Shown: piece after piece, positions 3,001-20,000 of the stretch
How positions within the stretch are numbered: position 1 is the first letter of the stretch
Layout: each line of letters opens with the position of its first letter
Source of the DNA: a virus
IMG/VR virus record: IMGVR_UViG_3300012954_000032
Coordinates: 1-34,132 of that record
Reading direction: 5' to 3' (one strand)
DNA length: 34,132 nt
Translations under genes and position numbers: made by a program
The notes under the pieces: generated by a model
The model's input: only the letters and a program-made list of their open reading frames with translations
Told to the model about the DNA's origin: nothing
The model's database searches: none

Positions 3001-6000
3001 TAGTTCAACCAGTGCTCTAGGAACAGCATTCGTGGAGTATGGTTTGTTGATGTATGGTCCAAGGTTGTTGGTGATATAATCTCTAACTGCCTTCTGGGTA
3101 GGTAGTTTAGAGTCAGTTGCGTTAGCACCACCAAGTGTGTTAGATGCGTCGAAACCAGTAACAACAACATCACCACCTTTCAGTTTCAAGAATTCAACTT
3201 CAGAGATGGTAACCGTACCTGTAAAGGTAATAGCACCAGTTCTGTTTTCAATTCTAGCGAATGTACCAACTTTGAAGTCACCAAGTTCATCAGTACCAGA
3301 AACATAAACACGACCGTAGTCTTGTGAAACTTGTTCGTTTGCTTCGATCTTAGTACCACCGTTTTCAGGTAGTGCAAGATAGTTAGTACCAGAACCTGCA
3401 AATTCCCAAGTGTGTGAGGAAGAGTTGACAATAGATGGTCTGTGTAGTCTAACTGTCTGACCAATTAAGGTGCTTGTAGATACTGCCTGACCAGATGCTG
3501 TATTGGTGAGATCCATTGCACCACCAGTACCATCATCAATGGTTAACTGAGCGGAGAAAGGAGGACCAACAGTAACGCCAGCTACAACATCAACAAAGTA
3601 TTCAATGTTGGTATTTGTATTAGTGTGTCCATCAACTTTGACAACATAGTGCTCTAGTGGTTCTCTTCCAAGACCACTTACTGTTAGAATAGTTCTACCA
3701 GTTGGAGTTGCAGAGACATTAGAAATTGTTGCAACGTCAAATACATATGGATTTTCACTGAATCCCTTACCACGAAGAGCAAATTGTCCAAAGTTTGTAG
3801 CGGAGTTAGTGATAGATGCATAACCACCAGACTCACAAAGAACACCATCAGCACAGAAGATAACGAAGACGGAAACCAACTGAGTGTAACCATCATTGAT
3901 AACCTTATAACCTGTACCACCAAAGGAAACGATAGTGAATGCCGCAGCAACCATCGACTTACCTTGGTTGGGGAACGATGCAGAACCGTCTAGTTCTAGA
4001 CCAGGGAAAGGACAGTTAGGTTGCTTAACTTTATTACCATCAATCAGAGCACCGCCACCACCTAGGAAGGAAATAACAGATGCGTTCTGGGTATATGGTG
4101 ATGCCTCAATGATAGGATAATCATCAAAGTCACCGCGAATAGCAACTCTCTGATTATTAGCGTCATAGATGAAACTATCTGGATATGTAATAATATTTGC
4201 TGTATCATACAAAGTTCCATTGGTTTTTGTTGTAGCACCAGGAAGTATTGTTCCGTCTAAAATATCTTCAAATAATTCCAGTTCTGTAATGATAGATGTT
4301 GCTACATTTGCACAAAGTGGAGTTGTGTTATAAAGAAGGATATTCCAATCTTCAAACTTGGGAATTGGAGATGTAAGTGTTACTGGATCAAGAATTAAAA
4401 TAGTTGCGCCTGCTCTTGCACTTACGAATGTGTGTGCTGAAGCAGATGCTGCTCCTGCATTTGGAACCGTGCAAGTGATTGTAGTATTACCACCAGAAGA
4501 AGAAACATTTGTGATGGCATAACTCTGTCCATAGTTAGAATCGAATCTAAGAGGACTTGGATGGTTTCCAGATGTGCCATTATAAGTACAACTAAAAGTA
4601 AGTGCTTCCTCAGCAAATGCAATTCTATCGCTAGTTGTTGGTAAAGTAGAAGGAGATGGAATTGTTACTGTTACTTGACCAGTAGATGCATTATAAGTAG
4701 CTGCAGATGGTGTAGTATCAAATGCTTCTCCACCAGTCCAGTTACGCATTGCATCTTGTGCATACTGCTTAACTCTTTGGAAAGCATAGATAGTTTCATC
4801 TCTCTGTGCTTCTGGAATACCAGTGAGTTGAGTTCCAGTAAAGTAAAGTTCCGCAGCCTCTACAATACCTTTATTGCCACCAAATACCAAGTCTTTGATT
4901 AAACCATCAAGAGTTTTCTTGATATCTCTACGGCACTTAGCTTCATTGACATTAGATAAACCGAGTGATGGATACTGAACCTTAGTATCAGCATATGCTT
5001 GATCCGCAATGAGATCTTTGTTTCTATTAATTAGATATGCAGCATCTAAGTATGTTCCTGTCTGGTTCTTGGAAATAATATCCACCCAGAGGAACGCTAA
5101 AGTATCAATAGCAGATTTAACATCTGCACAAGCAGGTGTTCCAGCAGTGGTTGTAATTACACTATCATCAAAATATCTTGTGATGCTAGAGTGGCGAGGA
5201 ACGTAAATGTCATCTGATGTAGTACCATCACCAATCCTCCAGTTTCTCATGCAATAAATTGCTAGTTCTCTAGCATATTCAATAGCACGAATGCACTGAA
5301 GAATTTCATCTTGAATATATGTAACTTCATCGTTGACAATATACTTCTTCGCTGCTTCAATAATATTATGGTTACTTCCAAATTCTAAGTCTCTAATTAG
5401 AGCATTGATAAAGTGTCTAGTATCTTGACGGCACTGTTCATCACCATTGTTACCAGTGCTATCTGGGGAACTGTAAGATGGATATATTTTTTGTCCAGCA
5501 TCACACTCTAGTAGAATATCTGCTAACTTAACAATACCATCTTCTACAAGTCCTGCAATAGGAGCACCTGTTGTGATTGTAGCTACTCCAGTTACAATAT
5601 TATCATAAGTAAATCCAGTGATACCAGTAGTTGTTCCACCAAATGTTACAGTACCACCAGAAATATAAGTATGTGTTGCTGTAGTTTGTCCTAAGTAAAT
5701 ATCAAAAGAATTTCCAGAAATATTGTATACTGGATAATGATCTGTTTTAAATTCGGTATTGACAATACCTACAACTTCATCAGCAATAAAGTCGATATTG
5801 TTGCGTAAGAAAGTGCAAGCATCTTGGAATCTTCTCTCTACTGGTGTTGATAGGGGGAAGGTGTTTGGAGAGTTGAGTAGAGATAGAGTAACGACTTTAG
5901 AAGAACTCTTGACTACAGCAAATCCACCTGGGTCAAGATTAGCATCTGTAATAGATGGTAATTTTTTGGGGATAACAAATCTTCTGGCACGACCGTCCGC

Positions 6001-8163
6001 GTCTTCAATAACCTTGTAGATTCTTTGCTTGCCATTAAGCACAGACAAGTCTGGACCACCAGTTGGCAGACCTTCAATTAAAATTTCTTGACCTTCTTTG
6101 AACTCGTGAGTATTTGTTCTACCTACAAGAGCACTGGTGTAGAATACAATACCACCAAGATCTTCTGCATTACCAAACTGTTCGTTTTGGAAACCACCAG
6201 TTGCGATACTTGGATCGCCTTGCAAAGAGAAGTCGAGTCTGGAGATAGGTAGAGTTGTGGTATAATCTTCGTCTACCGATACAACCTCACCTTCAGCACG
6301 AATCGACTTAATGGAAGTGGTATCAATTGTTTGAATTACTGGTGTTGCAGCATTAATCGCATAACTACCACCAATACCTGTACCATTCCAAGATGGAGAA
6401 GTTAAGATTGGGAAGAAAGATACATCCCAAATATTATTAGCGGAAAGTGTGCTATCAATAGCAGAAACTTCATAGAATCCAGTAAAAGCACCGCCAGTAG
6501 ATGGTGTCGCTACAACTTGGACATATGTACCAGGAGGAATTACTGATGTTGGATCAGTTGTAACTCTTAGTTTGTTTTCACCTTGCTGTTGGGTTGCAGT
6601 AAGCGAGTATGCAGAACCCGCAGATGCAGATGTAATAAATTCAAATCTCTCACCTTCAACGAAAGAACCACTGATTAACTGTACATCAATATCACCAGTT
6701 ACATAGGCGCTTGCACCAGTTGTTGTATTGAAATCAACGTCAATAATTCTTGCTCTAGCACCAGTGTTAACACCCTTTACTTTTAGTCCACTCTGTAAAG
6801 TTGAGAGACCTGTGTTGTTCTGGAATAGAACATTAAATTGCTGTGGTCCAAAGATTTGATGACCGATTGGAAAATTGGTGCCAAAGTCGCCATTTGCTTC
6901 TTTGTCAATGATAATTCTTTGCTTATCGTCAAAGACCATAGCAAAGTCCCAGGTCTCAACTGAGTCACCGTTAGAGTCAATTTGGTCTCTATATGTAACA
7001 CCAGTTACATAGTTTTTATCGCCAAACTTGAAGATGTGCTTACCAGCATTTCCTGGTCTAATAATTACAAGACGCAAGTTGTCACCAACAACCGATGCAT
7101 CAGGTGGTAACGAGATTGGGTTGTCTTCTACATAGTCTCCACCAGAAACAATCAGAGTTTCTTTAACGCCAGGAGTTGCCCATGCTAACTGTGCCGCTTT
7201 CTTAATTGTACGGACAGGGTTTACAGCAGAACGACCGTCGTTGAGGTCAGAACCAATAGTCTGTGAAACATAGATACGACCACCAACGTCATTCGTTGCT
7301 AGGTTTAGAACATATTCTGTAGTAGCAATCTTATCCGATCTGTCACCTAACAGTGGTGTAATAGAACGAGGGAATTCACCAGCAGCACCTGTTTCATTAT
7401 ATTTGTAAGCATTTTGATCTGCTACACGGAAACCGATGTGCTTTAATTGAACTTCACCGTTTAGTACAATACCGTCAGTGTGTTCTGGTGCTTCTGCACC
7501 TGTTTGCCCAGTATTCAGTGCCTGATACATATTGGCACCAAAGTACCTATATGAATCTTTTTGTAAAATTACATTGGAAGACCACAGAGTACCAGTATTG
7601 TTGACAAATGTCTTTAAGTTTGGTCCTCTGAATTCTGGGTTTGGAGTAACAAAGTTGTCGATATCTAGGTTTAGAATTCTCGCCGTATCAGAAATGATAG
7701 ACGTAGATGTTCTAATAGCACCATTAATATCAAGTTCGTAGTCAACAGTGTCAAGAACAGCAGTCGCAGTAGCACCAGCCCCGCCACCAGAAGTAATGCT
7801 TACAGCAGGAGCAGTTGTATATCCAGTTCCAGGTTCATTAACAGCGATCGATACAACTTTACCGTTAAAGATGAAAGCAGATGCAAGAGCTTGAATTCCA
7901 CCAGCAACATTTGGCGCTGCAATAGTTACAGTTGGATTTACTGTATATCCAGAACCAGCAGTGTCAACAACGATGTTGTTAACTCTTTGTCCAGTTCGGT
8001 TAATACCGACACGAGGTAATGAAGTAGCAGGATCTAACTGAGCTCGTAGAACCTCCTTCTCTCCAGAACCCGTTCCAGATCGAACTGTTACCTCATTATC
8101 ACCGATAAGTTTAGGTTGTACGCCCCTAATTTTCTCTTTATCGGAATTGATATGAAAACTCAT
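1..8163 (-). CDS. Giant tail-fibre/adhesin protein, 3' end beyond window (at least 2721 aa)
   Basis: An open frame runs from ATG at 8163 (MSFHINSDKEKIRG...) to base 1 with no stop seen in my codon-by-codon reading, giving 2721 codons; the C-terminus lies outside. In order: GxGYxxxP strands (residues 66-125); a carbohydrate-binding-like unit (202-245); a parallel beta-helix start, IYVSQTIGSDLNDGR (298-312); a helical insert with two CRxD...DLxFGxN...MRNW units (892-977, 1036-1142); a second beta-helix stretch with SPYTQN and QLVSVFVIFC (about 1337-1470); fibre motifs KLPTQKAVRDYI and KAGDTMTG; and two DSGLDADxLD repeats (2226-2406). The last residues in the window (VDVSTDRVGI, then PLHVQGDGG) are typical of phage fibres near their tip. 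A role as receptor-binding or side fibre is inferred from these motifs. The receptor is unknown. Upstream is a weak late-promoter candidate and GGGAACACC before the ATG. Confidence 0.9.
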   Translation of the reverse strand, partial: MSFHINSDKEKIRGVQPKLIGDNEVTVRSGTGSGEKEVLRAQLDPATSLPRVGINRTGQRVNNIVVDTAGSGYTVNPTVTIAAPNVAGGIQALASAFIFNGKVVSIAVNEPGTGYTTAPAVSITSGGGAGATATAVLDTVDYELDINGAIRTSTSIISDTARILNLDIDNFVTPNPEFRGPNLKTFVNNTGTLWSSNVILQKDSYRYFGANMYQALNTGQTGAEAPEHTDGIVLNGEVQLKHIGFRVADQNAYKYNETGAAGEFPRSITPLLGDRSDKIATTEYVLNLATNDVGGRIYVSQTIGSDLNDGRSAVNPVRTIKKAAQLAWATPGVKETLIVSGGDYVEDNPISLPPDASVVGDNLRLVIIRPGNAGKHIFKFGDKNYVTGVTYRDQIDSNGDSVETWDFAMVFDDKQRIIIDKEANGDFGTNFPIGHQIFGPQQFNVLFQNNTGLSTLQSGLKVKGVNTGARARIIDVDFNTTTGASAYVTGDIDVQLISGSFVEGERFEFITSASAGSAYSLTATQQQGENKLRVTTDPTSVIPPGTYVQVVATPSTGGAFTGFYEVSAIDSTLSANNIWDVSFFPILTSPSWNGTGIGGSYAINAATPVIQTIDTTSIKSIRAEGEVVSVDEDYTTTLPISRLDFSLQGDPSIATGGFQNEQFGNAEDLGGIVFYTSALVGRTNTHEFKEGQEILIEGLPTGGPDLSVLNGKQRIYKVIEDADGRARRFVIPKKLPSITDANLDPGGFAVVKSSSKVVTLSLLNSPNTFPLSTPVERRFQDACTFLRNNIDFIADEVVGIVNTEFKTDHYPVYNISGNSFDIYLGQTTATHTYISGGTVTFGGTTTGITGFTYDNIVTGVATITTGAPIAGLVEDGIVKLADILLECDAGQKIYPSYSSPDSTGNNGDEQCRQDTRHFINALIRDLEFGSNHNIIEAAKKYIVNDEVTYIQDEILQCIRAIEYARELAIYCMRNWRIGDGTTSDDIYVPRHSSITRYFDDSVITTTAGTPACADVKSAIDTLAFLWVDIISKNQTGTYLDAAYLINRNKDLIADQAYADTKVQYPSLGLSNVNEAKCRRDIKKTLDGLIKDLVFGGNKGIVEAAELYFTGTQLTGIPEAQRDETIYAFQRVKQYAQDAMRNWTGGEAFDTTPSAATYNASTGQVTVTIPSPSTLPTTSDRIAFAEEALTFSCTYNGTSGNHPSPLRFDSNYGQSYAITNVSSSGGNTTITCTVPNAGAASASAHTFVSARAGATILILDPVTLTSPIPKFEDWNILLYNTTPLCANVATSIITELELFEDILDGTILPGATTKTNGTLYDTANIITYPDSFIYDANNQRVAIRGDFDDYPIIEASPYTQNASVISFLGGGGALIDGNKVKQPNCPFPGLELDGSASFPNQGKSMVAAAFTIVSFGGTGYKVINDGYTQLVSVFVIFCADGVLCESGGYASITNSATNFGQFALRGKGFSENPYVFDVATISNVSATPTGRTILTVSGLGREPLEHYVVKVDGHTNTNTNIEYFVDVVAGVTVGPPFSAQLTIDDGTGGAMDLTNTASGQAVSTSTLIGQTVRLHRPSIVNSSSHTWEFAGSGTNYLALPENGGTKIEANEQVSQDYGRVYVSGTDELGDFKVGTFARIENRTGAITFTGTVTISEVEFLKLKGGDVVVTGFDASNTLGGANATDSKLPTQKAVRDYITNNLGPYINKPYSTNAVPRALVELTDSGKISIDQIPALRPFQVYTVANQAERTSIEGALAGDIAIQQDTSTSFILNDDNDSLFLGFAVDSALAFTIGDVFTGSVSTGSIQATEYRQGVVYQINISDGGSGYTVAPTVTIAGGNPSTGAIAASATCTIANGTVVTVTIETFGGIQGGKGYTTQPTVTFSAPPGAGTQAQGTALLESRLYGDIVNNIKIVDTDTFDDSTTPTANTVNINRVVNTSSFNVNNWVSLSSNQIAASDITSGVIETDRLATGGAANSFTFLRGDQNFALAVQSLKGAETRYFAKLAAQVNTGSSQMIFTTNSDVLIGHEVVTSVNGIPANTNINGVVTAAGLTTVSLNNPVTQTIPLGTIIEFQRGGSPLTFESTFTQGGFVDSVIVANGGSGYTNGQFFDIPLTGGTGTGLKANIVVSNNVVTELTVTDGGTGYSSDFTITISPTQIGTGSNLVLQAKVSTVNRQFANVAVDIQRVSDLTISADLYGTIGVSRYKKSQFNIGQAGNGSVELKTGADSGLDADLLDGAQGSFYTNASNLTAGTLPTDRLAGTYNISISNQSGSTIRLLTGTNNPSSSPTPNFFAPGIVSNTIFNSANGLNDGGTRNMVVTFRSGGTGFDTGFGGTRQLAFTDNDNMYLRGSGTGQTTFGSWGKVWTSLNDGLDSGLDADRLDNKQGPWYQNALNINFGTLSTERMPLFIEATRVRDSVTVKSFLGDPKYKIYFSGVILNTSPTGDFAPGNPINLYNANAQGVGSFTIDNVVTNDDTSDNFNDYTILIGRLTSGNFAGALTAGTASNRVEFDDFSIEDGNTVDVGKIQSSGGTALLKLGRVDGQSSSPAIYFRSSQVVPGSNVDAHRTASITASGGNATQNSGTLNVAVGNADSFTINNQKIWNEGNVIFRSVNVVSSAVIRDSSGNFSAGTITADLTGAASLNVRKAGDTMTGSLTITGAGSNLTVSGNAYVTGTTNLTNDLAVDTDTLFVDVSTDRVGINAGVNPVAPLHVQGDGGIMI
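946..1050 (-). repeat. DSGLDADxLD repeat, copy 2
   Basis: Residues 2372-2406 read GLDSGLDADRLDNKQGPWYQ, then NALNINFGTLSTERMP. It repeats copy 1 about 146 residues downstream, keeping DSGLDAD.LD..QG..Y.NA.N...GTL.T.R. Confidence 0.8.
1381..1488 (-). repeat. DSGLDADLLD repeat, copy 1
   Basis: Residues 2226-2261 read GADSGLDADLLDGAQGSFYT, then NASNLTAGTLPTDRLA. The DADLLDG.Q...Y motif followed by GTL.T.R is a recurrent phage fibre shaft unit. Confidence 0.8.
3754..4155 (-). other. Parallel beta-helix segment (second part) in the giant fibre
   Basis: Residues about 1337-1470 hold SPYTQNASVISFLGGGG, LELDGSASFPNQGKSMV, QLVSVFVIFC and GGYASITNSATNFGQ. These are later rungs typical of cyanophage beta-helix fibres. 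They lie more than 900 residues after the first part, with helical modules between. Confidence 0.65.
4738..5058 (-). repeat. Helical DLxFGGN module, fibre copy 2
   Basis: Residues 1036-1142 read GTYLDAAYLINRNKDLIADQ, then QYPSLGLSN, CRRDIKKTLDGLIKDLVFGGN and QYAQDAMRNW. It matches the gp7-like copy at 28390-28073 more fully than it matches its own tandem neighbour. Confidence 0.8.
5233..5490 (-). repeat. Helical DLxFGGN module, fibre copy 1
   Basis: Residues 892-977 read KIYPSYSSPD, then CRQDTRHFINALIRDLEFGSN, EAAKKYI and ELAIYCMRNW. It lacks the opening GT..DAA..I.RNK helix present in the copy at 5058-4738. Confidence 0.75.
6964..7284 (-). other. Parallel beta-helix segment (first part) in the giant fibre
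   Basis: Residues about 294-400 contain IYVSQTIGSDLNDGR, NPVRTIKKAAQLA, ETLIVSGGDYVEDNP and SVVGDNLRLVIIRP. YVS..GSD.NDG....P..TI..A........I....G.Y.E.. is the usual start of right-handed parallel beta-helix (pectate-lyase-like) domains in phage adhesins. No catalytic set is recognisable. Confidence 0.65.
7429..7560 (-). other. Carbohydrate-binding-like unit in the giant fibre
   Basis: Residues 202-245 read DSYRYFGANMYQALNTGQTG, then EAPEHTDGIVLNGEVQLKHIG. The Y..G.NMYQ...TG.TG..PP-like H..G pattern resembles the aromatic face of CBM5/12 modules and recurs in cyanophage fibres. Glycan binding is inferred from pattern only. Confidence 0.5.
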
Positions 8164-8207: not shown

Positions 8208-8708
8208 TCATGCCCAATCAATGCTGACCACTTCGGTCTTAGCAATCCACTTAATTGTTGAAGTTGTTCCTGCTCTGGTTGTAGAATAACTAAATCTATT
8301 TGCTGCACCAACAGGTTCTACATTCCAAGTTTCTCCAGATGGAATATCATCTTTGATTACAGTTTGAAAACTTGACTGCACAGTAGTGTTTCCTGATCCA
8401 TCACAGTAGAGTGATGTTTCAAACTTAGTAGCATATACAGTTCCAACCGCATTAACAGCAATAATATGACCTGTGATAAAATTAATCGTATTACTTAAAA
8501 TAGGAACTTGAGTGCCTAATCCATCCAAATCTAGAGTAGATGTGTTAAGACCTCTAAGAATGTAATTAGTTGTTCTACTGTCAGAATAACTAGAATTCTT
8601 AAGTTCTATAGTATTAAGATCCTTTGCATTTCTAAGTTCATCTACTACTGTGGTTTTATCAACTGAAAATCCACCAGTAGAATCAAACTTATCGATTGTT
8701 GTTGCCAT
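8208..8708 (-). CDS. Small virion protein, 166 aa, cyanophage-type
   Basis: Starts with ATG two bases after the TAA of the 1701-aa gene (which ends at 8711), so it is probably translated from the same message; AAGAAATAAAA precedes the start and no strong ribosome site is visible. The C-terminal half contains KDDIPSGETWNVEP and RFSYSTTRAGTTSTIKW, and it ends VVSIDWA. I recognise this signature from small proteins beside tail-fibre genes in T4-like cyanophages, where the function is unknown. No signal peptide or membrane segment is seen. Its composition is beta-rich (many T, S, V). Position between two fibre genes suggests a small fibre or baseplate-decorating protein, which is inference. It might instead be a chaperone for fibre assembly, but nothing in the sequence favours that. 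Confidence 0.85.
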   Translation of the reverse strand: MATTIDKFDSTGGFSVDKTTVVDELRNAKDLNTIELKNSSYSDSRTTNYILRGLNTSTLDLDGLGTQVPILSNTINFITGHIIAVNAVGTVYATKFETSLYCDGSGNTTVQSSFQTVIKDDIPSGETWNVEPVGAANRFSYSTTRAGTTSTIKWIAKTEVVSIDWA

Positions 8709-8710
8709 TT

Positions 8711-11700
8711 TTATTTCTTAGTAACGTTTGACACAATAGTGATGACTACATTATGACCAGCGGTAACTCCACTACCGATTGCAAAATTAACTCTTGCATA
8801 TCCACTAGCAGTTCTTTCAAAAGTTGGAGTAACCAGTTCAATATCTGTTCTAATATTTCCATACTGTGTGTGGAAAATATCAGTACCATCATCAATTACA
8901 CCAAACTCAAAGAATTCTTTCTCGTTGTTAGTTGTATTTTCTGCAACAACCATGACCTTTGCACCATTTTGAGTAGCAATCTCAAAGATGTTAGATCCTG
9001 CATTATTGACTGTTCCTGCTGTTAGTGTCAGTTTCTCAGAGAGAATCTTAACATCAGCAAGTTCAAATTCTTTTAGATCACTATCAAATACCTTGACGCC
9101 ATTATAAACTCCTGTGCCAAAACCAATATTTAAGAAAACATCACCTTGGTTATCTAATCTTAAGACAGGATCTACACTCAGACCAGCAGAAAGACCGATA
9201 TCGAAATACTGCTTACTTGTATGTAGGAAAGTAGTATCAGCAGCAGTGTTATCTAGAGTAGTTTCTGCAGAATTGAATGTCATCAAGTTTGCAGTGATTT
9301 CAAACTCACTAGAAGTTTGAGATCTAATTGTATCTACAGAATAGAAGTCGAGTGCAGTCGTAGTGAGTTGTACTGTATTGCTTCCATCATTGTAGAAGTA
9401 TAAAATATTTTCATTAGCGCCAGGGGTGGTCTCTGGAATGATGTAAGTGTTTTGATCAACGTCTTTAACACCACCAAGAGAACCCCAGTTGGTTCCATCA
9501 TAACCTTCATATGTTAAAGTAGTTGTGTTATATCTAATCGAACCTTGCTCAGCAGTTCCTCTTTCTCCAGTTGTACCAGAAGGAACTACCAAACTTGTGT
9601 TAATATCACACTTAACTTTCTTACCAGCATTTGGTCTTAAGTTAATATCGTTGATAAGTGTTGTAATTTCATTGCCAAGGAATCTCAGATCGCCACCAAT
9701 AGTAAGTGGTGTTCCGCCAAGAGGACCAATTTGAACGTCTTCAATTTCTTCAAATGTTAATAGTCCTACTGCGGAGACATTGAACTGCAGTGTAGCAGAA
9801 CCATTTACAAATGGATTGCCAGATGTATCTGTTGGTTCGCTACCAGAAGTTGCTGTTGTACCACTAACAGTTACTTCAAAGATGTTGTTTCTATACTTAA
9901 CATAAGATCCTACAGTAACTGGTGTGTTTGCTGCCCACTCGGTGTATGCAGGTGCCGCTACATTAATTGAGCGGAGTTTCTTCATGTTAACAAACTCTAA
10001 GTGGTTTGGCGTAACTCTGATGGTATTGTTACCATCATTGTAGAACCACAGTCTGTTATCATTAGATCCAACACTTTCTTCTGCAGCGATGTAAGTATTA
10101 CCATCTAGGTCTCTTACGCCACCAAGAGATGCCCAAGATGTTGTTGATGCATTGTATCCTTCATACTGTCCACTATCAGTGTTAAATCTAATTGCACCAT
10201 TAGCAACTACTGCTGCAGATGGTCTAGCACCAGTATCACCTGCAGGAATAATCAAAGCAGATGTTCCATCAATCTTAGCAACTCTGGTTGCTGCAGGAGT
10301 CAATAGAATATCAAATCCTGGTAGAGCTCTAATATTGTTATCTTCAATCTCGATCTGATCATTACTATTAAACTTATCAAGTGTTTTAATAAATCCGTTA
10401 GTAGTTAGAGCACCCGTACTGCCAACAACAGATAGTACATTTGATTGTGGGTTGGTTCCAATAAAGAAATTGCCATTAGTTACATTATCTGGAGCAGTTT
10501 GTGTTAATGTTCCTGTTGAATTGATTGCATTGACACTAAGTGTTCCCCCACTAATAGTTGGAGCAGTTAAAGTTCCAGAAACACTTGCCGTTGTTGAGGT
10601 TAGTGTTGTTGTAGTAAGAACTTCTGTAGAAGCTGTACCTGTAGCAATATCAAGTTTAATTACATCCTCAGATTGAATTTGGTTGACAGTTAATTCAAAT
10701 CCACTACCAAATACTTTGGGGTTGGTAGAATTCATTGTAATTAATGCTGTTCCGCCAATTCCAGCAGACTCTTTAGAGTAATAATATAAATTTGGTGTGT
10801 TTGATGTAACTTTAAGTTCTAGAGAATCTGCTTCTCTTGTAACACCAGTTGTATATTCGGAACCAGCAAAGATTAATGTAATAGTTCCATCGTTAATTGG
10901 GAACTCATTTAAAGTTAGTTGAGTAGCACTATCTACAGATGCAACAGTAGTAACAGCGTTTAGTTGTCCAACACCTGATCCAGTTACATCCATTCCAACA
11001 GAAATTCCTGTTGTAGAAGCAACGGTCAGTTGTTTGTTAGTAGTGACTACTGTTGTTACAACGTTTTCTACCCTAGATGGACTCCAAGCACCACCTTCAA
11101 ATTCACTTAAAGCAAATGTCTCATCTACCAGAGATCCGTCTGATAAATCAAATCTATAAGTGCTTCCAACATAGAAAGTTAAATTTGGATTGAATACATC
11201 ATCAATCAAAAAGACTTCATCATCCGTAGATGTGACGGCAGTAAATGTTGATGTGCCAGTTGCTGATGTGTTGAACACATCATTAGCGGTAAATCCTGTA
11301 TTTACATCATCAATTTCGATTACAATACTGTCAGTATTTCCTCCAGACTCATTGATCTGCAAAATTCCATAATCATATAGATCAGTTACACTATCAACAT
11401 CAATACTGATATCATCTGCTGGAGTTGCACCACCAACTGCAGTTCCTGGAATTGTTAAAGTGTCAGTTGTCTCGTAGTCAAAACCACCAGATGCAACTGT
11501 AACTGTTGCAACACCCTGAGCATCGCGAGTAACATTAAATGTTGCTCCTGATCCAGTACCACCAGATCCAGAAACAGTAGTATAACTTTGATTTGCTTGT
11601 GCTAAAATTGTTGTCCCTGTTGGGATAAATGTTACAATAGCGCCATCTCTGAGATTTGCAGTTAAACTACTACCACTAATTGTTCCAGCAGCAACTCCAC

Positions 11701-13816
11701 TTAATGTTATCGTTTGAATTTTCTTATATTCTACGACTTTAATATCTGGTTGCACAAGGTTGGTTGGATCAACAGATAAGATATCACCTTCTGAATATCC
11801 GTTACCAGCAGCAGCCGTATTGTTAGCAGCAATCGCTGCGACAGAAACAGCGCCCAATTTATTAATAGTGTATGAAAATGCGGTTGTTCCTACACCAAAA
11901 GATGGGGTGATTGTTAAAGTTGCTTGTCCTGGTTCAGTAGCACCAATAGAAAGCGTAATAACATTGTTGATTGCATCAATAGATTGAATTGTCGTATTAG
12001 CTGCCAGGACAGCAGTACCAGCAGTAAGGGTAATTGGATCACCCGAAGACAAACCTGCAACCGATGTAAGTGTTACATTTAAAGCATCCAGAGAAATAAA
12101 TGTTAGACTTGCAGCACCAGCTGTTTGTGGTGCTTGGGATATGGTAACATTATTACCAGATATGCTTGCAATAGTAATTCCTTGACCAACATCACCTGTA
12201 CTACCAGCATCGGTAGTCACAGTCATTCCAACTTCTAATCTAGAACCATCAGGAACCGCAAAAGTTGCTGATGCTCCTAAAGTTACAGAAACTCCAGATA
12301 AAGTTCCTGGGATATAACAATTGATTCCTGTAGTTGGTCCTGGTAGTGCAAGAACATCGTTTACTGCATAGTTAGATCCATATGTTGAGATTTCAAAATC
12401 TGTAACTACTCCAGGAGTCTCTCCAATGGTATACGTAAATCCAGATCCACCACCGTTTCCTAGGTTAGAGTCAGTAATACTTAAAATATCACCACCCTGG
12501 TAATTTTGACCTTGATCAATTACAGTAACATTTGTTACTTCACCTGTGTAAACTGGTGTGCCAATAGTTCCAAGTAATCCAGAACCAGTTCCACCAAGAT
12601 CTACAGCAAGAATAGAAAATGTATCACCATTCTTATATCCATTACCAGCACTGTTAATTGTGAGATCAGTAACAATTCCATTAGCAACGGTTACATCAGC
12701 GGTAGCATTTCTACCAGCAACTCCAGCGGAACCAGCAATAATGTTAATTGTTCCACCCATTCCACTATGCTGACCACAAGCATATCCGAGACTATCTCCT
12801 GCGACCGCAGTTTCATGAACGATCAAGTCTACAAATGCTCCAGCATTTCCTTCGACGCCCTGCTGAACTTGAGTAAATTTTGTTGAATCTAATGCATTGA
12901 GTTCGCCGCCAGCACCATGGAAATACAATGGGTGACTATTGTTGCTTGCATCAGAAAGATCAAATCTGTATGTGTTACCAACTACCAGACTTAAAGTTGC
13001 ATTTTGGGTGCCATCAATTACGTAATCGTATGGAACTCCAGCACCATCACCAACAACTGTTAGTACCAAAGTTGATGTTGGCGTATTACGAACTACATTT
13101 CCAGAATAAGTTCCATCAACATATCCAGAACCAGCGTTGGTAATTGTTACTGGTAAACTTGTATTACCAGTGATCGTAACATCTGCAGTTGCACCAGTAC
13201 CATTACCACCAGTGAATGGTACATTAGTATAAGATCCTGGTGCATATGCAGAACCTGCGGCAGAGATAGCACCAGTTAGAGCAGGAATCTCGAAATTACA
13301 AGTAGCATCCGTACCACTTCCACCTGTCAAAGCGATACCACTGTATTGACCAGAGTTATAGTTTGCACCTACATTGGTAATAGTACCAGCATAATCAACA
13401 ACAGTGATGTCGAGAAGTGCATTGTCACCTGTTCCTCCCAGAACAGCAACTTCTGTATATGTTCCTGAGTCATAGTTTTCACCAGAATTGGTGATTGCTA
13501 AACCATCATCGAATAATTTTTTCTGTTGTACAATAATATCTTTGTAGTATTTGACATCTGTAGTTGAGATATCAAACAGTTTCTTTTCTGCTGCCACAAA
13601 TCCAATAGTTGCAGCAGATGGTTTATAAATACCGAGTTGTGCATCTGTGGTAAAAGCCAGAGATGGTGCTGTTCTAGTACCATCCCCTAACCTCAGATTG
13701 CCAGTAGACAAGTCTGTGCCACCTGCCGTGACATTAAAGATTTGTGTACCGATTTCGTTAATCTTGACCCTTTGTTGTTCAAAGGTATCTGTTCTAGCGA
13801 CTTGTGTTGCTGGCAT
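8711..13816 (-). CDS. Multidomain tail-fibre-like virion protein with cupredoxin-like domains, 1701 aa
   Basis: The N-terminus (ARTDTFEQQRVKINEIG) and the following LAFTTDAQLGIYKPSAATIG segment are cyanophage fibre signatures; KIN followed by a short helix also recalls T4 gp9/gp10 starts, but only weakly. Then come four GGxGTGA/GxxY repeats (105-235); a cupredoxin-like domain with H295, C347, H350, M353 (268-360); more GxGY strands (385-490, 670-690); a second cupredoxin-like copy lacking the ligands and split by an insert (869-1027); two copies of a fibre module with EGY...W.SLGGV.D.D.NTYI (1186-1275, 1407-1490) flanking a carbohydrate-binding-like unit (1291-1346); and a C-terminal beta domain with EKEFFEFGVIDDGTD. 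The ATG lies inside the 71-aa gene, with a 23-base overlap. It is probably a peripheral fibre or baseplate adhesin; no enzyme motif was seen. Confidence 0.92.
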   Translation of the reverse strand: MPATQVARTDTFEQQRVKINEIGTQIFNVTAGGTDLSTGNLRLGDGTRTAPSLAFTTDAQLGIYKPSAATIGFVAAEKKLFDISTTDVKYYKDIIVQQKKLFDDGLAITNSGENYDSGTYTEVAVLGGTGDNALLDITVVDYAGTITNVGANYNSGQYSGIALTGGSGTDATCNFEIPALTGAISAAGSAYAPGSYTNVPFTGGNGTGATADVTITGNTSLPVTITNAGSGYVDGTYSGNVVRNTPTSTLVLTVVGDGAGVPYDYVIDGTQNATLSLVVGNTYRFDLSDASNNSHPLYFHGAGGELNALDSTKFTQVQQGVEGNAGAFVDLIVHETAVAGDSLGYACGQHSGMGGTINIIAGSAGVAGRNATADVTVANGIVTDLTINSAGNGYKNGDTFSILAVDLGGTGSGLLGTIGTPVYTGEVTNVTVIDQGQNYQGGDILSITDSNLGNGGGSGFTYTIGETPGVVTDFEISTYGSNYAVNDVLALPGPTTGINCYIPGTLSGVSVTLGASATFAVPDGSRLEVGMTVTTDAGSTGDVGQGITIASISGNNVTISQAPQTAGAASLTFISLDALNVTLTSVAGLSSGDPITLTAGTAVLAANTTIQSIDAINNVITLSIGATEPGQATLTITPSFGVGTTAFSYTINKLGAVSVAAIAANNTAAAGNGYSEGDILSVDPTNLVQPDIKVVEYKKIQTITLSGVAAGTISGSSLTANLRDGAIVTFIPTGTTILAQANQSYTTVSGSGGTGSGATFNVTRDAQGVATVTVASGGFDYETTDTLTIPGTAVGGATPADDISIDVDSVTDLYDYGILQINESGGNTDSIVIEIDDVNTGFTANDVFNTSATGTSTFTAVTSTDDEVFLIDDVFNPNLTFYVGSTYRFDLSDGSLVDETFALSEFEGGAWSPSRVENVVTTVVTTNKQLTVASTTGISVGMDVTGSGVGQLNAVTTVASVDSATQLTLNEFPINDGTITLIFAGSEYTTGVTREADSLELKVTSNTPNLYYYSKESAGIGGTALITMNSTNPKVFGSGFELTVNQIQSEDVIKLDIATGTASTEVLTTTTLTSTTASVSGTLTAPTISGGTLSVNAINSTGTLTQTAPDNVTNGNFFIGTNPQSNVLSVVGSTGALTTNGFIKTLDKFNSNDQIEIEDNNIRALPGFDILLTPAATRVAKIDGTSALIIPAGDTGARPSAAVVANGAIRFNTDSGQYEGYNASTTSWASLGGVRDLDGNTYIAAEESVGSNDNRLWFYNDGNNTIRVTPNHLEFVNMKKLRSINVAAPAYTEWAANTPVTVGSYVKYRNNIFEVTVSGTTATSGSEPTDTSGNPFVNGSATLQFNVSAVGLLTFEEIEDVQIGPLGGTPLTIGGDLRFLGNEITTLINDINLRPNAGKKVKCDINTSLVVPSGTTGERGTAEQGSIRYNTTTLTYEGYDGTNWGSLGGVKDVDQNTYIIPETTPGANENILYFYNDGSNTVQLTTTALDFYSVDTIRSQTSSEFEITANLMTFNSAETTLDNTAADTTFLHTSKQYFDIGLSAGLSVDPVLRLDNQGDVFLNIGFGTGVYNGVKVFDSDLKEFELADVKILSEKLTLTAGTVNNAGSNIFEIATQNGAKVMVVAENTTNNEKEFFEFGVIDDGTDIFHTQYGNIRTDIELVTPTFERTASGYARVNFAIGSGVTAGHNVVITIVSNVTKK
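9347..9598 (-). repeat. Fibre module copy 2 in the 1701-aa protein
   Basis: Residues about 1407-1490 (SLVVPSGTTGERG, then EGYDGTNWGSLGGVKDVD, then LYFYNDGSNTV) repeat the module at residues 1186-1275 of the same protein. The pattern V/IPxGxTGxR...IRxN...YEGY...W.SLGGV.D.D.NTYI...FYNDG.NT is shared by both copies, and is a recurrent unit in T4-like cyanophage fibres. Confidence 0.85.
9779..9946 (-). other. Carbohydrate-binding-like unit in the 1701-aa protein
   Basis: Residues about 1291-1346 read YTEWAANTPVTVGSYVKYRN followed by FEVTVSGTT and a Ser/Thr/Pro-rich stretch. W...T.VTVGSYV.Y...IFEV...G resembles CBM5/12-type chitin-binding modules (W-x-Y-xxGd-V-x-Y-xxxxYxa). The match is by pattern only; glycan binding is inference. 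Confidence 0.5.
9992..10261 (-). repeat. Fibre module copy 1 in the 1701-aa protein
   Basis: Residues 1186-1275 contain LIIPAGDTGARPS, then EGYNASTTSWASLGGVRDLD, then LWFYNDGNNTI. It pairs with residues 1407-1490 downstream. The two copies have diverged at many positions but keep the EGY, W, SLGGV, NTYI and FYNDG landmarks in the same order and near-equal spacing. Confidence 0.85.
10736..11212 (-). other. Degenerate cupredoxin-like domain with insertion
   Basis: Residues 869-1027 keep the frame of the upstream cupredoxin-like domain: FYVGSTYRFDLSDGS near the start and LYYYSKESAGIGGTALI at the end. The first-His position is not retained (VDETF replaces NSHPL), and the Cys, His and Met positions are Ser, Glu and Ile. 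An insert of about 75 residues (roughly 912-986) with a TTGISVGM...V pattern separates the halves. Metal binding is therefore not expected here. Confidence 0.65.
12737..13015 (-). other. Cupredoxin-like domain with intact His-Cys-His-Met residues
   Basis: Residues 268-360 read VIDGTQNATLSLVVGNTYRF, then DLSDASNNSHPLYFHG, and end with LGYACGQHSGMGGTINII. H295, C347, H350 and M353 fall in the order and context of type-1 copper ligands (His, then Cys-x2-His-x2-Met on the last strand loop). Similar YYC..H.GMGG domains are frequent in marine phage structural proteins. Copper binding has not been shown here and is inferred from residues alone. Confidence 0.65.
13112..13504 (-). repeat. Tandem GxxY/GGxGTGA repeats in the 1701-aa protein
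   Basis: Residues about 105-235 hold four successive units of roughly 30-40 residues: ITNSGENYDSGTYTEV, ITNVGANYNSGQYSGI, ISAAGSAYAPGSYTNV and ITNAGSGYVDGTYSGN, the first three followed by a GG.GT.A segment. At DNA level the copies have diverged, so this is a protein repeat, not a recent DNA duplication. Confidence 0.8.
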
Positions 13817-14018: not shown

Positions 14019-17000
14019 TTAGAAAGATGCAACAGCACGGATGTCCTGAATCTTGGGAACAAATGCAGGATCATCAGTCTTCATAACAATTTTAACAGCA
14101 AACGAGGTAAACTCTTGTAAATTAGAAACACTATACTTGAGTTCTTGATATGCAGATTGCTTCTCAACAATACTAGAAATAGTGTTCTCACTTGTTGCCA
14201 ATTCCAGCGTATCTGGTTCGCCTGCTACATTAAAGTATTCCCACTCAATGTCATCGAAGTTTTCTTGACTTGATGCTTTTTTGAACTTATACAAGACCGC
14301 AATATTAGCAACATCTTTCACATTAGCAGTGAGTCTAACATCAATTGATGTTGCTGGATTTTCGATGAATACTTCTTTAGTTACATACTTAGCAGCGGCA
14401 GAACCATTCTTGGAAGTATCTTCCCCAACATACTCAGATCCATTTGTATATGTTACGCCCTTAACACGAAGTGTTAATTTATCATCATCAATTTGATCTG
14501 GATACTTGACATAATCTTCAATTCTAAAGATATCTGGTGCCTGATCTGCAGTTGTTCCATTTCTAGAATAGAATGTACTGGTAGAAATTGCTCCAGTAAA
14601 ATCATCACTAATTGGTTGCTTGTCAACTCTTAGTGTCAACTTATCATTTTCAGAATCCCAGAAAATAACTTTTCCAGAAATTGTGTTAACATAAGTATCT
14701 GCATCGTTTGGACCTGCTGGCGTGACGTTTCTAGCAATAACCGTAACTCCTTCTGAAATAGATGGACTATATTTTAGAGGATTGGAATTGACCGATGTAG
14801 AAGTCAATCCAGAGTTAGCACCACCAAATGTTAGCGTCTCGCCTTTTTGGAAGAACTGAGTTGTGGAGATACGAACAAAGAGAATATTGTTTGTTGCATC
14901 CACCTTAACAACTCTTCCTTTTGCCTTAGATGTTTGTCCCTCAATAGACTGATCATTGGTAATAGCGGTAGCGCCATTACCAGTAATTGTAAACTGATAA
15001 ACTGGGAAGAATTCGAGAATTTGATCTCTCTTACCAAATCTATCTTCTTGTCCTTTAGAATTTTGAATTCGATTAGAGACAGTTTTAACACTTGCGCTAG
15101 ACAAGTCAACTACAGGACTTAAGTAAGTTTTTGTGGAGCTCAACATCATCTTGTAGGTCAATGAAGAATCAATATTGTTTACTGTTTCATTGATATCAGA
15201 AGCAATAAGTTTCTGATTTGTAAAGTAATGTGGTTCATTTAAGAAAGTTTTTTCGTAACTAGTCTGTGAATAAGATGTATAATTTGTAGTATTAGAATCT
15301 ACAGAGATTACATTAGTCGTCTTTACAGAAGTTTCTAGTTTTGTTCCTGTATTGATTAGATATCTTACTTGTGGGAATAAAGTTTCAAACTTTCTATTGT
15401 ATGTTGCATAAACACTGGAACCACCACCAATAGCATTAGTAGATGCACTTGTAGCAGATTTGATTGTATAAGAATCAATACCAGAGTTGTCTACTTCAAA
15501 CAGAGTATTATTCAAACTACTTGCAGAAATACTAGCAATTTCTTGAGCAGTTCTGTAGAATACAAAAGACTTTCCTCTGTCTTCAAAACCATTATCTCTG
15601 TGAGAGACATTGACAATTTTATTATTGTTCTTAAAGAGCATGGATGTTGCATTTGAATTAGACTCTGCATTAGTTGCAAATGGATTAGTATCCAAAAGCG
15701 TATAACCTAGAGACTCATTCTTTAGAAGAAGTTCGCATGGTCTGTCAATTCTAAATTCTGCACGATACAGAGTAAACTTAAGATCTTCAAAAATATCTTC
15801 AGACCAGTTTTCTGTATTTTGAGATTTGTATACAGATCCCAACGATGGTTGTGATGTAATTACTGTACTGGAAGAGACATCGATTTCGCCTAATTTAGAA
15901 ACCCACATTTCATAATCTGTCGAATCTGTCTCAACAGCAAGAGCATATTCAGTATCATTTTGTAGGTATACTGGATGAGCAAATTTAAACTTAGTTGCGG
16001 TAGTAGATGGTGTAATGCCAGTAGAATCGGTTGCAATACCCATTCTAACAGCAGGTGTATCAATCTCTATTTCAGTCTCAATTACACACCCTCCAGCACC
16101 ATTTCCAATGCCCTTAACAACTACTGAGGGTGCTTCGGTATATCCAAAACCAGATAGTGCCAACGCTACATTATATGCTTTTCCGCCAGAAATTTGTACA
16201 CTTGCAGTTGCTACCGAACCACCAGGAAGTTGTGGACTTTCAATAGTAAGTAATGCACTATCGTAATTAATTCCAGACTCTGTGATTTTGATACCAGAAA
16301 CTCGTCCACTATCTTTCGCGATAGTTAGTTTTAGATTAGTTCCGTCTGTTGCATTAGCAAGAGTTACAGATGGAATATTGAGATCTTCATTTTGTGCAAA
16401 GGTGTTACCATTGTGGTTATCAAGAACCAGAGTATATACCATCTCATTGGATAACGTAAACACACCATCCGCAGAAGAAACTAAGTCAATTCCATTTTTA
16501 TCAATGACTTTCAGAATAGGACCAGATGCAGCAGAAGTTGCACCAGTAACAAATTCTCCTTTTGTTACTTTGACAGTTCCATTTGTGTAACACTTGAGAA
16601 GTGTATTTGGAAGTAGTGCTACTTCACTACCAGGAATAACATTCTTTCCTGGTCTGTCACTATCAACATCAGTCAGATAAACTCTTAGTGGAATGTTCTT
16701 ACTCTTTTTAGAGAAGAAAAGATCTAAACCAGTAACAAAGCAACCACCTTCAAAGTTTTCAACCTTGAATGTTTGTGCAAGTGGATTTGGTCTAACTGGA
16801 TTGTCAGTGTTATTATCTACAAACTGAACACCTTCATTCGCTTTGAAGAATGCTGGTTTTGTGGATACAATACTTGATGGATTTTCTGGAAGAACACCTG
16901 TAGCATAATACTTGACTTCTGCGTAAGTATCTACTTCCGCCTTTTCTTCATTTGTAGAACTGGATGTAAATCGGAAAGTTTGGATGCCAGTAGTTACCCT

Positions 17001-20000
17001 AATTTCTTCCGCATCACTGTCATACTCTACAGTGTCTAAGTCTCCAGTCCATGTTGTATTCTCCTTTGGAGGTGCTCCAGCAGGGAGTAGAATAATGCCA
17101 CTAGCATTGCCATTTTCATCAGTAGAAACCTGACCGTTAAATGCGGAGAGTGAACTTCCTGCAATACCACTAAATCTCAAGTCTGGATTAACCCAACGAC
17201 TAATATTTCTACCTTCTAAGAATACAGAAATTTTTGTATTTGGTTTTAATCTGCGAATCTCATATTTAATTACATTAGATCTTGCGAAGAATGATAATGC
17301 AGTAGAAACTTTGCTTTCTCCAACGGTTTTACTTTGAACTCCTTTACCAATATCATTGTTGTTTGGACTGATATTAGAAGAACTCGCTACTTTAGCAGTA
17401 TTTACAGATGCAGTAGCTGCTAGAGAAGAAACTTCGCCTAAAGAAGTAATCGAAGTGAAACTATTGGAAGTTCCAACCCAGTTTACAACAAAGGAATTAA
17501 ACAAACTAGAGAAACTTTCGACTACAGATTCTTTTGCTAAGAAAATATTGAAGAGACTTGTATTTGTATCAACAACAATAGGATCTACAGATTGGTCATA
17601 CCATTGATCAATAGACGGGGAAATACTAGCATCTCCAACATACTGAAGAACAACGAATGGATTTGGATTTATAGTTTTAGATGCAAAACTATTACCAAGA
17701 AGTTCTAAAGAACTAAATGGGAGAGTAACAATGTCTCCAGATTTTTGATATCCAGAAACAATTCTTTGATCCTCTCTTACATTAACTTCTTTGAGTCTAA
17801 CCGAATCTTCTTTTGCTTGTGGGCGAAGAACAGACTGCTGACTATCAATAGAACATCTATAATCTCTAGATGCAAGATTGCCAACTCTATGCTCTTCAAA
17901 ATTATCAACGAAGAAACCAGACTTGAATCTATCTAGTCCAATCTCATCTTTGATTTGCATATTCAATGCTTGCTGTTCTAGAATGCTAAGAACAGTATAA
18001 TACTCAAGACGCTCAATACGTTTTTCCAATTGACCGATATCGCGCATTGTATAACGGCGATTGTCAACAGATGTAATTCTTACATCTTTACTGGTCTTGG
18101 TGTATGCTGGGATGTATGCATAGAACAGAGGAACTGCATCATTAATTGTATCTGGTTTAGTTGGGTTGAGAGAAGAGTTTCCTTCTTTAACGACAAACTC
18201 ACCAGATTTGTTGAGGAAAATACCATCAATACGATCAAGATATTGTACTTGACTGAATGAGAAAGTAAATTCTAAATTTGTATCTGGAGCAGGAGTAGCA
18301 GCAATAACTGCACCTGCTGCAGAGAATTTTCCACTATTGATAGCAAGAGATGCCGTATCTTGGAAACCAGGGACAATAGCAGTGCTATCTACTTTGGGTC
18401 TAAAATCAAGTACATTCTTGAGTTCTAAATTTCCATGAACAACGGAGTTGAAAGATGGAATTTCATCTTCAGGAACTCCTGCTTCGTGGAGATAACTATC
18501 GATAGTACAGAAATCTCCTTGAGAATGATTGAAATAATCAAATGCAACAACTAACTGACCACTAGTTTGTTCAAATCCTGGTTTGAGAACGAGTCTAGAA
18601 ACATCGTAAATTGTATCTCTTTGACCATTATCAAAAGTGAATCTATCAGTTACGTCAGTTCCAGAAATTAGATTTCCTGCACTATCAATTTCAGGTGGTT
18701 GTGATACAGTTCCTTCATAAACATATCTCAAGTTAATTGCATCAGAGTAAGATAGAACTTCTACTACCTCACTATCATACTGCGTTCCTCTGAATGGAAT
18801 GATTCTATCACCAGGAGATGTGATAACAATCTGCTTATTCTTAATGATTGTTTTTAATCTTGGTTTAGCATTCTCTACTTCTAAAGTAGCAGTAAGTTTT
18901 AGTTTGGGGAATGTTCCGTTGGAAGGAATGGTGCCAAAATAGTTTGAGTCTAACTCAAGACTCAAACTACCCGAAGTTAGTCCACTAGCAGTATCAGTTG
19001 CAGAACTGATAGTTACAGCATCTGCAGGAATGTATACAATATCTCCTTTAGCAATATCAGGTGCATCTCCTGGGTCTAGAACAGTAATGATGTAATTCTT
19101 TTCATTGAATTCTGTGAACCTTTGTGTTCCAAATGGTAATTGTGCAGCAAAAGTGATAACACCACCACTGCTAGATGCTGTAGTTACAAAATCTCTACGG
19201 AAGAAATACTTGATATTGCTATTATCCGTGCTAGAAGAGATTTGAGAAATCTGCTTACTTCCAGTTGGGAATAGTAAAGATCCCTTGGATGCATTCTGGA
19301 CAGATGGTTTGAATACAACAATACTTGAATTGACAACATTCGCAGGCAAGAGAGTATCTAAGTAAATTCTGGTTTTAACAGGACCTTCTTGCTTGGTTGC
19401 ATATTGTACTGTTGCTTTAACAGTATTATTGTCTTCATCACTGAATTGAATAATATCTCCTTGAGATACTAATTCGGATGCATCTGCGCTAAAACTTGTA
19501 GATTCTACGAAGTTAAACCCTTTACCACCAAAGAACGTAAAGTCAGTAACATTCTTTACATTTGCAAACTGCTTGTTATCAATTACTAGATCAGCAGTAA
19601 ATGTATTTGCATTTCCAGATCCAAAAGAACAACCTACAGATTTTACATCTTGTGGTGTGTATGTAGTTACTGTATTTCTAAACAATACTACAGAAATATT
19701 TGCTGCTGGGGATGGACTTCCAGATCCTTGTGGTTGCTCAATAGTAACCGATGGTGGTTGTGGATATTGTGTTTTAAAAGCAGTTCTATCTTTAATAGTA
19801 GCTTGCTTAATATTTCCAGCTGCACTGATGTCTAGTTCAATCTTAGATGCATCGATGGTTACACCATTAATTACAATTAAGGATGCAGAATTATAATTAC
19901 CACCTCTATTTTGACAGATGAAGTGAGAAATAGTATTCTCTGTTGCGATAGTTACTGTATTTGCATCCTCATCACGAAGAGTTTCTCCAGGTAAAAACTT

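Follow-up and report, generated by a model that had tools for sequence, protein, structure and literature searches.

A probable divergent cupredoxin domain with a putative copper-type site in a tail/baseplate protein of marine cyanophages, and the graded loss of that site in a second copy

Among the cupredoxins, the spacing of the ligand loop is CxxHxxM in amicyanin and CxxHx4M in plastocyanin, while nitrosocyanin is a red copper protein with a His2-Cys-Glu ligand set, the Glu of which is supplied by a different region of the fold. Cupredoxin His/Cys/His/Met sites, such as that of azurin, accept Zn when the protein is produced in a copper-poor cytosol. Two links between phages and metal-binding proteins have been described. 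Cyanophages carry petE (PMC3037559), and iron-binding HxH motifs in phage tails, including the long tail fibres of T4, are known, as is the Ferrojan or Trojan Horse idea (PMC11705849). In the open-licence literature searched, iron bound by HxH motifs is the sole metal considered for marine phage tails, and no report was found of a cupredoxin, plastocyanin-like or copper-binding domain in phage tails. HxH iron and petE are already known; what is new in the case described here is the setting of a cupredoxin-like domain, the marine phage tail.

The domain is encoded by a marine cyanobacterial virus (IMG/VR record IMGVR_UViG_3300012954_000032), of which a stretch of 34,132 bases, referred to as the window, was analysed. 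It occurs twice, as copy 1 and copy 2, in a 1701-aa protein (Table 1) that matches phrog_6005 (virion structural protein) and phrog_32294 (baseplate wedge subunit), and that has orthologues in S-CAM4 (BOQ05_gp171) and Syn1 (Syn1_099). The surrounding cassette has the order gp8-type wedge protein, 2707-aa protein, 1701-aa gene, 166-aa structural protein and tail fiber protein. This order is identical in S-CAM4 and Syn1 and, over the part compared, also in S-RIM32, S-MbCM7, S-H9-1, S-H9-2 and Sf-CH1b. Positional counterparts of the 2707-aa protein are annotated as 'virulence-associated structural protein' (S-CAM4) and 'baseplate wedge initiator gp7' (S-MbCM7), and copy 1 itself shows 66% identity between the window and S-CAM4. 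Because the gene order with gp8 and the tail fiber gene is conserved along with the orthologous sequence, comparison assigns the 1701-aa protein to the structural proteins of the tail/baseplate cassette of Kyanoviridae (T4-like marine cyanophages). An earlier note on this DNA had called it a phage fibre protein; that it is a virion structural protein agrees with the match to phrog_6005, while 'fibre' is a possible label to which the wording 'tail/baseplate cassette' is preferred.

Table 1. Features of the tail/baseplate cassette and of the 1701-aa protein, with positions in the window.
Feature	Position	Strand	Evidence
gp8-type baseplate wedge subunit, marker of the tail/baseplate cassette	22240..24054	-	PF09215 (42 bits), phrog_438
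2707-aa protein between gp8 and the 1701-aa gene	14019..22142	-	annotated counterparts at the same place elsewhere
1701-aa virion structural protein holding copy 1 and copy 2	8711..13816	-	phrog_6005 and phrog_32294 matches
Copy 1, cupredoxin-like domain, residues 264-360	12737..13027	-	profile comparison and structure model
H295, first His of the candidate site	12932..12934	-	conserved in 108/109
C347, Cys of the candidate site, sole Cys of copy 1	12776..12778	-	conserved in 109/109
H350, second His of the candidate site	12767..12769	-	conserved in 108/109
M353, axial Met of the candidate site	12758..12760	-	108/109 at the aligned column
Insert-type module, free-standing, residues 502-573	12098..12313	-	E 5.8e-12
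Insert-type module, free-standing, residues 579-637	11906..12082	-	E 1.2e-7
Copy 2, residues 869-1028, ligand-free in the window phage	10733..11212	-	copy-1-type profile
77-aa insert within copy 2, residues 910-986	10859..11089	-	in all 65 orthologues
166-aa virion structural protein, downstream of the 1701-aa gene	8208..8708	-	phrog_5449
Tail fiber protein, truncated by the window end	1..8163	-	phrog_5342

The span in which the earlier note had placed a pair of cupredoxin-like domains (10736-13015) corresponds to residues 268-1027 of the 1701-aa protein, and the four residues it named as copper ligands of copy 1 (H295, C347, H350 and M353) read in the translation of the ORF exactly as claimed. 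Their conservation was followed in 109 distinct copy-1-type domains from IMG/VR and a few genome contigs, retrieved with the motif GNTYRFD, the conservation of which is itself biased because it served for retrieval. Outside this motif no position of copy 1 is conserved more strongly than the four ligands (H in 108, C in 109, H in 108 and M in 108), which persist even where identity has fallen to about 31%. With retention in 108–109 of 109 distinct domains, the ligand set is not a matter of chance. The loop from Cys to Met has the form CxxHxxM in 105 domains, CxxHx4M in two (L050 and L057) and CxxHx3M in one (L115), where the Met is shifted by one residue and Val occupies the Met column. Only a single copy 1 among the 109, that of L109, truly loses ligands, both His being replaced (by Tyr and Asp). 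All 13 named isolates inspected carry HCHM; they come from Kyanoviridae, S-TIM5 and a Pelagibacter podovirus, and include S-TIM5, P-TIM68, Melnitz (Methylophilales) and Mosig and Baldr (Pelagibacter).

Other roles for these residues were considered. A disulfide is ruled out for C347, the sole Cys of its domain in a protein with four Cys in 1701 residues, and a catalytic Cys-His pair is ruled out by the invariant Met. Copy 1 contains no HxH of the type found in the T4 gp37-like iron site, the site being H..CxxHxxM. In one clade of orthologues (L027-type), copy 1 has an additional Cys (AGCFTD), and nine residues are inserted ahead of its first His.

In searches of Pfam and NCBIfam with the window protein, copy 1 matches no model, and the gathering cut-off of PF00127 (21.2 bits) is reached neither by the window protein nor by A1 members, which gave no match to it. 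Weak Pfam matches (At5g54830, thaumatin, DUF4466) were dismissed as chance or sub-threshold, and a phmmer search of the PDB with copy 1 as a single sequence gave no useful match. Profile searches of the PDB brought plastocyanins closer to, but still short of, the threshold as sequences were added (E 1.4 to 0.14), with an Ig domain as the top match. In a direct comparison of profiles by hhalign against a plastocyanin/azurin set of 27 PF00127 proteins from cyanobacterial and other genomes, the copy 1 profile matched with 95% probability (E 4e-8) and all four ligands aligned, whereas the control sets, fn3 and Big_2, both gave less than 1%. When the ligand loop was held fixed and the other columns were shuffled, the score dropped from 47 to 23 ± 2 (maximum 30 of 150), so the remainder of copy 1 contributes to the match. 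When the ligands and loop were masked instead, the score was 16.8, the null being 9.4 ± 1.8 (maximum 15.2); this weaker match depends on one strand pair around GNTYRFD. The description of copy 1 as cupredoxin-like, with a near-invariant H/C/H/M set, is upheld by this profile match together with the ligand counts.

A second route to the cupredoxins leads through a cellular protein. L259 (G277:C1:348223-348624), 134 aa long, probably has a signal peptide; it carries an H/C/H/M set and is encoded in a 1.7-Mb cyanobacterial (picocyanobacterial) genome. It matches the phage A2 profile, with all four ligands in register, at an E of 7.6e-6 for a single genome and of about 2e-3 when all 292 genomes searched are taken into account, and it passes the PF00127 Copper-bind model (28.2 bits, cut-off 21.2). 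Its score against the plastocyanin model TIGR02656 (E 1.5e-6) is far under the equivalog cut-off of that model, so it is not plastocyanin itself. The 189-kb G001 contig encodes a long tail-like protein, one domain of which is 44% identical to L259 and scores 19.0 bits against PF00127 (E 0.002; cut-off 21.2). At the level of sequence, L259 thereby links the phage tail domain to Copper-bind transitively, a link that confers no formal Pfam membership on the window domain. The G001 contig derives from a Prochlorococcus single-cell genome and is probably a co-sorted cyanophage; L289 (G001:C3:180000-187500) is a long tail-like protein with a string of cupredoxin-like domains, only some of which have ligands.

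Copy 2 was described as a relative of copy 1 split by an insert of about 75 residues, and both points hold. Among the proteins of the window, a copy-1-type profile matches residues 869-947 (E 8e-20) and 961-1023 (E 2e-4), and the insert measures 77 aa in the window and 75–81 aa in 65 of 65 orthologues; its presence in every orthologue indicates that it is old. The insert is a copy of a module that is free-standing elsewhere in the 1701-aa protein. The module is also present in a 3339-aa protein (window 27893-28054, minus strand, E 2.7e-13), the ORF of which holds the frame once more, as a third and strongly diverged copy that lacks metal ligands (window 30176-30358, minus strand, YKYVFDTSHSSLSG, E 2e-4). 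As for the substitutions reported in copy 2, the first His is missing, Ser replaces C347 and Ile replaces M353, all as stated, but the Glu placed at H350 is a Ser. When copy 2 is aligned from its GG end, a Glu falls at the H295 position and another Glu at the Q349 position.

In the domain tree, copy 2 forms a single clade (97*), and copy-1-like domains are split from copy-2-like and other tail-fibre domains (98*). A first tree had nested copy 2 inside the other tail-fibre domains, a placement that was dropped when the AU test failed to reject the alternative, in which the 12 other domains form one clade (p-AU 0.71). Because the tree is unrooted and this alternative is unrejected, in-gene duplication and the separate acquisition of a sister subtype are indistinguishable. 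The TYRFDLSD frame common to both copies, and their presence in one gene, speak for duplication, while the split of the copy-1 subtype from copy 2 and the other tail-fibre domains speaks against it; we regard it as quite possible, if short of likely. The earlier proposal of duplication followed by loss of the metal site is therefore retained for the loss, through orthologues that have HCHM or H, C and H, but its first half is fitted by the tree no better than separate acquisition.

The state of copy 2 differs widely among the 65 orthologues: six have HCHM, 28 have H, C and H with Glu, 13 have H only and 18, the window phage among them, have none of the ligands. The Cys and the second His are both present in 34 and both absent in 31, never one alone, the pattern that a single functional unit would give. 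On an unrooted tree of the downstream part of the 1701-aa protein (59 rows), the states are strongly clustered and require at least 12 changes, and the seven-row clade of the window (100*) includes the S-CAM4-type L003, which retains H, C and H in copy 2. As some orthologues keep HCHM, and H, C and H remain in S-CAM4, the nearest isolate, copy 2 would descend from site-bearing forms; the simple reading, on a tree without a root, is that the site was lost after a site-bearing ancestor. Also supported is a putative course of loss via Met-to-Glu, occurring several times and amounting to more than simple decay. L109 reverses the situation of the window: both His are gone from its copy 1, and H, C, H and Glu are all present in its copy 2.

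The H/C/H/E form of copy 2 might itself be a functional metal site, only of a different type, re-tuned rather than decaying. Wherever H, C and H are kept without Met, the axial position is Glu at H+3 (28/28, e.g., L027, L003 and L011), and the close relatives L117 and L132 differ there by Glu and Met, respectively, which agrees with re-tuning. The C-to-H spacing is variable (x2, x5, x6), however, and the site is wholly lost in several clades, that of the window included, leaving this reading somewhat doubtful.

If copy 1 is a metal site, it could bind Zn, Fe or Ag instead of copper, or be loaded with Zn in the cytosol alone, purely for stability. It is general knowledge from azurin expression that cupredoxin His/Cys/His/Met sites also take Zn in a copper-poor cytosol, but the invariant axial Met and the CxxHxxM loop are the type-1 copper pattern, and Met is seldom retained in sites for Zn or Fe. 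Iron has a precedent in the T4 long tail fibres, which bind it via HxH, and HxH has been reported in marine phages (PMC11705849), although HxH differs from the site of copy 1. Overall, a metal other than copper is judged fairly unlikely.

A first AlphaFold model of copy 1 (29 sequences, pLDDT 81.5), for which Foldseek gave Ig-like and other sandwiches and no cupredoxin, was superseded by a model from 70 sequences (pLDDT 94.9, pTM 0.86), which is a seven-strand beta-sandwich. For the Greek-key cupredoxin fold expected from the earlier note, the later model gave a divided answer in the PDB. The highest TM among the matches listed by Foldseek belongs to a multicopper oxidase (laccase 9rcj_B, TM 0.52, rmsd 4.1, E 0.055), while by E-value Ig sandwiches come first (TM 0.31–0.47), and there is no PDB match with E <= 1e-3. 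Among viral models, many cyanophage fibre and structural proteins resemble copy 1 with TM 0.7–0.8. Two small 'beta-sandwich proteins' of pithovirus-like genomes (BFVD A0A481Z6J5 and A0A481Z7Q7) have a TM of 0.65 to the copy 1 model. That the four residues are conserved for the fold or folding of an Ig-like sandwich, with no metal, is quite improbable: although Ig domains rank first in Foldseek and give the top PDB profile match, copy 2 keeps the frame after ligand loss and drops Cys and the second His together, the Met is kept despite changes in loop length, and the profile match to the fn3 (Ig-like sandwich) set is below 1%.

The preferred reading, which we hold to be probable, is that copy 1 is a divergent cupredoxin with a putative type-1-copper-style site in a tail/baseplate protein, and that in copy 2 the axial Met became Glu before the site was lost. 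Copy 1 would bind one metal ion per domain, with copper favoured. As the protein is made in the host cytosol, where free copper is scarce, the metal would probably be taken up after lysis; the low level of free copper also makes another metal, or no metal, possible. Once bound, the metal would lock the loop end of copy 1 and so stiffen an adhesion module that is presumably surface-exposed. This is the favoured, if tentative, reading of its job; direct host contact comes next and is less probable, and redox work is distinctly unlikely because no partner is known. Related domains keep the frame without the site, which shows that the fold as such can do without metal. In copy 2, the change from Met to Glu would have come first, with later loss on several occasions, and copy 2 of the window phage would act as a scaffold carrying the inserted beta-module.

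A broader version, in which a working type-1-like copper centre is common in the adhesion machinery of marine phages (cyanophages, pelagiphages and methylotroph phages), with copy 2 re-tuned to Glu and then lost, is advanced only tentatively. If it is true, attachment or particle stability would be copper-dependent, and virions would be copper ligands in seawater. The sequences suggest that many ocean viruses carry a metal centre that is apparently undescribed. A near-invariant H/C/H/M set shared by phages that infect three major groups of marine hosts would bring copper into the question of tail metals, and would make it directly testable in cultured cyanophages, through their metal content and the dependence of their adsorption on copper. 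The copy 2 series, with close forms having axial Met or Glu, amounts to a cupredoxin site mutagenised by nature.

With plastocyanin/azurin (PF00127) and amicyanin-type cupredoxins, copy 1 shares the ligand order, the beta pair, the first His and the Cys-His-Met loop. The main form of its loop has the amicyanin spacing, and that of L050 and L057 the plastocyanin spacing. Unlike the PF00127 cupredoxins, copy 1 is embedded in a large virion protein, lacks a Pfam match and has copper as a predicted ligand, and its seven-strand model does not rank cupredoxins first in Foldseek. T4 gp37, taken together with the Ferrojan Horse idea, resembles it in placing a metal site (putative in copy 1) on a phage adhesion protein in the sea, but gp37 differs in having HxH pairs in a trimeric fibre rather than an H/C/H/M set in a single domain. 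The plastocyanin auxiliary gene petE is likewise a cupredoxin encoded by cyanophages, and a PF00127 match (L151) shares the 189-kb contig with the G001 tail-domain copies; the petE product, however, is a separate, small, host-type electron-transport protein outside the virion. Nitrosocyanin has a Glu in a His2-Cys set, as does copy 2 of 28 orthologues, but draws its Glu from another region of the fold, whereas the Glu of copy 2 is at H+3.
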